Shown here: piece after piece, positions 27,263 through 28,993 of the stretch
Layout of the letters: every line of letters starts with the position of its first letter
How positions within the stretch are numbered: position 1 is the first letter of the stretch
From: Candidatus Shapirobacteria bacterium
GTDB taxonomy: Bacteria > Patescibacteriota > Microgenomatia > UBA12405
Assembly (NCBI GenBank): GCA_028704635.1
Contig: JAQWFB010000008.1
Location: forward strand, 1-37,081
Direction: 5' to 3'
DNA length: 37,081 bases
Notes under the pieces: model-generated
What the model was told of the DNA's origin: nothing
The model's database searches: none
The model's input: only the letters and a program-made list of their open reading frames with translations
Position numbers and translations under genes: made by a program

Positions 27263-27290
27263 GTAGAGACGCAATATATTGCGTCTCTAC
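27263..27290. repeat. Perfect 28-bp palindrome (14-bp inverted repeat, no spacer)
   Basis: GTAGAGACGCAATATATTGCGTCTCTAC. Confidence 0.95.
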
Positions 27291-27310: not shown

Positions 27311-27316
27311 TATAAT
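27311..27316 (+). promoter_or_regulatory. Extended -10 of the tmRNA promoter
   Basis: TGCTATAATATAG about 12 nt before the mature 5' end. Confidence 0.6.
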
Positions 27317-27327
27317 ATAGACCTCCT

Positions 27328-27750
27328 GGAGATGTATTGCATTGACGGAGTTAGAACTTTAAAAAGCTGCAAGCCGACTTTGATTCATGAGTCGTTAAAC
27401 AGAGTCAAAACAATTATGCCAAAAATACTTTTGGTGTCAAATTAACCGAAGTTGCAAACGCCTTTACTGGTGCTTTCGTTCCTAAAGTTAATGCTTACGC
27501 TTTAGCTTAAGCACGACCATTTTTTAGTTTTCTGTTCTGAGGGGAATTAAAAAGTGTTAACTAAATCAGAACGCTGTTATTAGGATCTCGATTTTCTAAT
27601 AATTTAAGAGAGGGGTAATGCCCTCAATAATCGACATTCCAACACTTTTCGCTTACTTTAGTTGTTGGAAGTGTAGGATAAAGTAATTTAAGCTTGTAGA
27701 GGTTTTTTACAGTCGACTTTCGGACCTGGGTTCATTACCTGGCATCTCCG
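27328..27750 (+). ncRNA. ssrA: tmRNA (SsrA)
   Basis: GGAGATG/CATCTCC acceptor; 5' ATTGCATTGACGG; resume context AAGTT-GCA; tag ORF 27454-27510 ANAFTGAFVPKVNAYALA*; paired stems GTTCTGA/TCAGAAC, TTATTAG/CTAATAA, GAGGG/CCCTC, TTCCAACA/TGTTGGAA, CTTTA/TAAAG; P2 CTGCAAGC/GCTTGTAG. Confidence 0.93.
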
Positions 27751-27758
27751 CTAAATAG

Positions 27759-27783
27759 AAAATCCGCTTTGGCGGATTTTTTA
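27759..27783 (+). terminator. tmRNA terminator, shared with the convergent PIN gene
   Basis: AAAATCCGC-TTTG-GCGGATTTTTT. Confidence 0.85.
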
Positions 27784-28579: not shown

Positions 28580-28993
28580 TTATTTTAAAGTTTTTTTCAT
28601 TTCTTTGGCTTTGATTTTTTCGCGTTTTTCGTACTTGCGCATTTTGCGGCCGACACCGATTTCAACTTTAAACCACTTCCCTTTTGTAAAAATAGAAATG
28701 GGAATCAACATATATTTTTGATTACGAAGGCTGATTAGTTTTAATATTTCTTTTTGAGATAATAATAAATTTCTTTCTTGGGTGGTGTCGATTGGTTGGC
28801 CTTGAGAATATTTATATAAAGGAATAGTTAAATTAAAAAGAATTGGTTGGCCGTTTTTAATTTCAACCTTAGAATTGGCAAATTGAGGGGTTTGAGTGCG
28901 TAACGACTTGGCATCAGAGCCAGTTAAGGCAATGCCGGCTTCAAATTTGGCGATAAATTCGTAATCTCGTGATTCTTTGTTGAAATGTTTCAT
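28580..28993 (-). CDS. smpB: SsrA-binding protein SmpB (start trimmed from ORF-track 29104)
   Basis: MKHFNKESRDYEFIAKFEAGIALTGSDAKSLR..; C-terminal basic tail GRKMRKYEKREKIKAKEMKKTLK. Confidence 0.93.
   Translation of the reverse strand: MKHFNKESRDYEFIAKFEAGIALTGSDAKSLRTQTPQFANSKVEIKNGQPILFNLTIPLYKYSQGQPIDTTQERNLLLSQKEILKLISLRNQKYMLIPISIFTKGKWFKVEIGVGRKMRKYEKREKIKAKEMKKTLK

Follow-up and report, generated by a model that had tools for sequence, protein, structure and literature searches.

A Shapirobacteria tmRNA lacking both alanine identity determinants, with serine as the probable amino acid

The ssrA gene of the window and its acceptor stem

The window analyzed here is the whole 37,081-nucleotide stretch of contig JAQWFB010000008.1 from a Candidatus Shapirobacteria bacterium, and it carries an ssrA gene together with a convergent smpB gene (Table 1). 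The RF00023 covariance match to ssrA had an E value of 3.3e-28 over model positions 1-374 and lay above the gathering cut-off of 47 bits, whereas ARAGORN did not report the gene. A second, canonical ssrA, as the initial annotation had suggested seeking, was searched for genome-wide, and in the 96%-complete genome only the ssrA of the window exceeded the cut-off. At the 3' end only C74 of the CCA is encoded in the DNA (...G-CTA). Between the upstream open reading frame and ssrA, at 27263-27290, is a perfect 28-bp palindrome, GTAGAGACGCAATATATTGCGTCTCTAC, of which no second copy was found in the window and none in the other loci fetched.

Table 1. Features of the ssrA-smpB region, in window coordinates
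Feature	Position	Strand	Remarks
ssrA (tmRNA) gene	27328..27753	+	RF00023 match, 76.6 bits, full model
Mature tmRNA (expected)	27328-27750	+	CCA added post-transcriptionally
Acceptor stem, 5' strand GGAGATG; position 3 = A (27330)	27328..27334	+	identical in 28/28 family members
Acceptor stem, 3' strand CATCTCC; position 70 = T (27747)	27743..27749	+	identical in 28/28 family members
Discriminator N73 = G	27750..27750	+	family: G or T, never A or C
T arm CTGGG-TTCATTA-CCTGG	27726..27742	+	5/5 pairs in all 28 family members
Tag reading frame, resume codon GCC to TAA, AKNTFGVKLTEVANAFTGAFVPKVNAYALA (30 aa)	27418..27510	+	
Probable -10 box TATAAT of ssrA	27311..27316	+	inferred from direct reading of the sequence; absent from the scan's list
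Probable intrinsic terminator AAATCCGC-TTTG-GCGGATTT-TTT	27760..27782	+	sequence read directly; scan gave no call
smpB (137 aa), convergent with ssrA	28580..28993	-	PF01668 E 1.7e-30 at 28583-28978; 827 bp downstream

The acceptor stem forms seven of seven pairs, with A27330-T27747 as pair 3:70. The initial annotation had read the acceptor and the adjoining G73 in this way, and alignment to RF00023 bears the reading out, as running Infernal with this model did not move the register to one having a G-U third pair. When examined for G3:U70 and A73, the features through which AlaRS charges canonical tmRNA, the RNA was found to have A3-U70 and G73 instead. By homology and anatomy the RNA of the window is a tmRNA, and we do not file it as an alanine-accepting one.

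Distribution and descent of the A3-U70 acceptor

A tmRNA was recovered from 28 of 35 genomes of the family (Candidatus Shapirobacteria), representing 13 genera, with RF00023 scores of 58-91 bits. The acceptor GGAGATG/CATCTCC was identical in all 28, which derive from independent MAGs, and each had C74. The discriminator was G in 12 and U in 16, and in none was it A or C. The loss of canonical alanine identity claimed in the initial annotation is thus well supported, both for the window and for the whole family, in which 28/28 tmRNAs are without both determinants. The comparison with ssrA of relatives showed that the A3-U70 shared by the family gives way to G3:U70 with A73 in three sister families of the order, whose seven tmRNAs have GGGGATG/CATCTCC followed by A73. 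Position -1 (27327 in the window) was T in all 12 members with G73 and C, T or A in those with T73, a pattern that maybe reflects an effect of -1:73 pairing on RNase P.

A sequence-pattern scan of named genomes returned 27 A3-type and 22 G3-type tmRNAs along with 4 chance matches. The A3-type set, all having the acceptor of the family, contained every match named Shapirobacteria, and the G3-type set contained every match named Levybacteria or Levyibacteriota. Both ends were readable in 40 of these tmRNAs, and they fell without exception into A3 with G or T73 (25) and G3 with A73 (15). The census was extended to another 135 tmRNAs of the class and phylum (Patescibacteria), of which 133 had G3:U70 and A73; the first 55 of this sample were biased to canonical genes because the best-scoring matches were chosen, and the second 80 extended to lower scores. 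One of the canonical genes was L332, with GGGGGTG/CACCTCC-A. Of the remaining two, L349 could not be read at pair 3:70 since its sequence begins inside the gene and lacks the 5' end, and G102, considered below, had A3-U70 and G73.

A tree was constructed from 35 tmRNAs (the 28 of the family and the seven of the sister families) with positions 1-3 and 73 left out. The Shapirobacteria formed one branch (support 100/99), and position 3 changed once. Within the family N73 underwent seven or more changes, all of them exchanges of G and U. Since these changes never reached A or C, both bases seem to be selected against; a free site would show G-to-A and U-to-C transitions, none of which were seen. 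The T arm, which had been described as weak, proved otherwise: all five pairs are formed in each of the 28 genomes and compensatory changes occur, with 26 cells altered on both sides and pairing maintained at 100%. An invariant acceptor beside a compensating T stem argues against relaxation and decay. The T54-A58 pair, missing from the gene of the window, was likewise absent in most of the family and in the sister families that retain G3:U70, and its loss is therefore unconnected with the change of the alanine determinants.

The tag reading frame was open in 28/28 family members and encoded 28-41 residues. The readable tags of the sister families were shorter, having 13-14 residues and once 27. 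A core of AKxxFGVDLTKVADAF recurred in the family, and in 7/28 members the tag ended in Cys instead of Ala (e.g. LAVC, EATC). An SmpB gene was present in 25/25 genomes tested. The protein has the motif GSDAKS or GADAKS in the family versus GxEVK in the sister families, and a conserved Glu, which we take to be E. coli E31, a contact to tmRNA, is replaced by Asp in every aligned sequence of the family. This replacement is a possible co-change with that of the tmRNA.

Alanine and serine identity in the family and in a second lineage

All tRNA-Ala genes read, whether from this genome, its congeners or the rest of the family, had G3:U70 and A73. AlaRS was detected in 24 of the 25 genomes searched and was single copy in all but one of those. 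The enzymes of Patescibacteria are without the C-terminal domain. The Asn of the PSN motif (E. coli N303) was invariant, and the residue at E. coli D400 was Glu, Gln or Ser in the family and in relatives with canonical tmRNA alike; this numbering, and the role of both residues as G3:U70 contacts, we presume from AlaRS structures. Co-divergence of AlaRS at these contacts was considered and rejected, the N303 equivalent being invariant and D400 being replaced across Patescibacteria whatever the tmRNA type. Because the D400 position differs, the tolerance of E. coli AlaRS is not transferable to Patescibacteria. With tRNA-Ala canonical and the Asn of AlaRS retained, only the tmRNA has departed from the alanine code, and according to the strongly supported tree it did so a single time, in the ancestor shared by the Shapirobacteria.

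The tmRNA is without an anticodon, so the enzyme that charges it must not need one, and it is in the tRNA families for Ala and Ser that the anticodon carries no determinants. SerRS does not read the anticodon, and it recognizes tRNAs with a long variable arm. The genome carries one intact SerRS, and the combination of G1-C72, G2-C71, A3-U70 and G73 was found among its tRNAs in the four tRNA-Ser genes alone. According to the literature, most bacterial tRNA-Ser retain G1-C72 and G2-C71, and G73 is of moderate importance in E. coli. U73, the base of 16 family members, was absent from the tRNA-Ser genes read, and SerRS would have to tolerate variation at N73 if serine is indeed the amino acid. The tmRNA has neither an anticodon arm nor a true variable arm; according to the published structure, the long helix (P2) leaving the tRNA-like domain points in the same direction as the long variable arm of tRNA-Ser (PMC3985003).

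Two further genes of this genome were observed among its tRNAs. A low-scoring tRNA-like gene (L101, G000:C3:41760-41836) has a long variable arm, a GAT anticodon and unpaired terminal acceptor positions, and looks like a decayed relative of tRNA-Ser. The tRNA-Tyr (L093, G000:C3:134832-134903) has C1-G72, an archaeal-type identity. Archaeal-type tRNA-Tyr identity has been described in some CPR bacteria, the Shapirobacteria being among the groups whose TyrRS was analyzed (PMC5370408).

The tmRNA of G102, a genome from another family of the class, has the acceptor GGAGACG/CGTCTCC, G73, a textbook T arm and an adjoining smpB gene. In this genome, of which approximately 38 kb were unread, three tRNA-Ala had G3:U70 and A73, and four tRNA-Ser had G73. 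The A3-U70 and G73 of G102 represent a change independent of that in the Shapirobacteria, that is, convergence.

Charging of the tmRNA and comparison with known systems

We consider it probable that the tmRNA has undergone a natural switch of identity from alanine to what is probably serine, and that it is a working tmRNA, predicted to be charged by SerRS. In the ancestor of the Shapirobacteria, G3 changed to A and A73 to G or U, removing both strong AlaRS determinants, and the remaining G1-C72, G2-C71 and A3-U70 with G73 (or U73) present the acceptor end of the organism's tRNA-Ser. SerRS, being anticodon-independent, would most likely load serine, the long helix pointing toward the place of the variable arm. 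SmpB would then bring this charged RNA to stalled ribosomes, where the tag would be added as Ser-AKNTFGVK... instead of Ala-AKNTFGVK.... Without G3:U70 a Ser-tmRNA should be spared deacylation, so loss of the pair would hide it from AlaRS editing, and avoidance of A73 would keep both LeuRS and AlaRS off. Serine loaded by SerRS is the simplest reading because of the match to the acceptor of tRNA-Ser, the indifference of the enzyme to the anticodon, and the direction of P2.

If AlaRS instead continued to alanylate the tmRNA, either by relaxed recognition or with the assistance of SmpB, the lost determinants would be irrelevant. Replacement of Asp at the D400 position and absence of the C-terminal domain in Patescibacteria could permit this, and animal mitochondria have G3:U70-independent AlaRSs (PMC6451123), but the D400 change is common to relatives having a G3:U70 tmRNA, and tRNA-Ala has G3:U70 and A73 everywhere read. 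Relaxation would also predict drift, yet the acceptor is invariant, and A73, favorable to AlaRS, is never found despite the repeated changes at the site. We regard continued alanylation as improbable. Charging by a different synthetase, such as that for Gly, Cys, Thr, Asp/Asn or another amino acid, we hold to be unlikely. G73 or U73 does occur on the tRNA-Asp, Asn, Trp, Gly, Cys and Thr of this genome, and U73 alone can confer cysteine identity on minihelices (PMC9976931). Such enzymes, however, require anticodon bases, which the tmRNA is without, and the Gly and Thr tRNAs of this genome have C2-G71 versus the G2-C71 of the tmRNA. We know of no synthetase of the Gly, Cys, Thr or Asp/Asn type that regularly accepts either G73 or U73.

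An RNA that is decayed or repurposed, and either uncharged or functioning without an amino acid, would be in keeping with the loss of both AlaRS determinants and with the low RF00023 scores of the family. It is nonetheless very improbable given an identical and fully paired acceptor, a covarying T stem, tag frames open throughout, an intact smpB and a C74 that is always encoded; such features, kept over 13 genera, are not those of a decayed gene. A pseudogene, against which the initial annotation had also argued, is ruled out by the paired and covarying T stem, the 7/7 acceptor and the open tag frame in 28/28 members. Base 27330 is a single change off the canonical state, but an assembly error or contamination can be dismissed almost entirely, as all 28 family tmRNAs, from independently assembled genomes, have this acceptor, and it is coupled with the change at position 73. 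Among the three options initially offered, charging with another amino acid is therefore the one favored, now with serine as the specific candidate; error at 27330 is rejected, and divergence of the AlaRS/tmRNA pair is unlikely as stated, since tRNA-Ala keeps its G3:U70 and A73 and the N303 equivalent is unchanged.

That two lineages reached A3-U70 with G73 fits the prediction of a switch to serine and not chance decay. From these genomic comparisons we lean toward at least two independent natural exchanges of alanine for serine, in the Shapirobacteria and in the lineage of G102, in which trans-translation would run on Ser-tmRNA charged by SerRS, G3:U70 having been lost to escape charging and editing by AlaRS, and avoidance of A73 serving to evade LeuRS and AlaRS. 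The dropping of G3:U70 by a whole family and a second lineage, with tRNA-Ala remaining canonical, suggests that trans-translation need not be tied to alanine. The question of why alanine is used becomes directly testable, the prediction being charging by SerRS and a tag starting with Ser.

The third pair of tmRNA has been described as "completely conserved as G-U" (PMC3985003), and we found no description of a tmRNA naturally departing from alanine in the open-access literature, subscription papers being outside the scope of the search. The authors of the tmRNA Website discarded certain calls, archaeal or multiple, in which the alanyl-tRNA synthetase features were poor (PMC4131195); with filtering of this kind, non-alanine tmRNA genes could be overlooked. 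The Shapirobacteria tmRNA resembles canonical tmRNA, charged by AlaRS, in its full-length RF00023 match, tRNA-like domain, P2, tag reading frame with stop codon, and SmpB, and differs in having A3-U70 and G or U73 in place of G3:U70 and A73. With tRNA-Ser (and tRNA-Sec) it shares the acceptor end of G1-C72, G2-C71 and A3-U70, together with G73 in the window and in 12/28 family members overall, and it would share anticodon-independent charging and the position of the long arm; unlike tRNA-Ser, it is without an anticodon arm or true variable arm, and U73 is present in just over half of the family. A natural anomaly of the acceptor stem is also known in the tmRNA of Carsonella HC/HT, which has an A1:U72 closing pair (PMC4131195). 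There the first pair was changed through gene overlap and recognition by AlaRS is thought to be kept, whereas in the Shapirobacteria the alanine determinants themselves are lost. E. coli tmRNA was given a histidine identity in vitro, according to the papers citing that work (Nameki et al. 1999, cited in PMC3929946/PMC3985003); the likeness is that the identity of a tmRNA proves to be switchable and alanine perhaps dispensable. The histidine tmRNA is a laboratory construct, whereas the switch proposed for the Shapirobacteria would be natural, fixed and family-wide, with another amino acid predicted.
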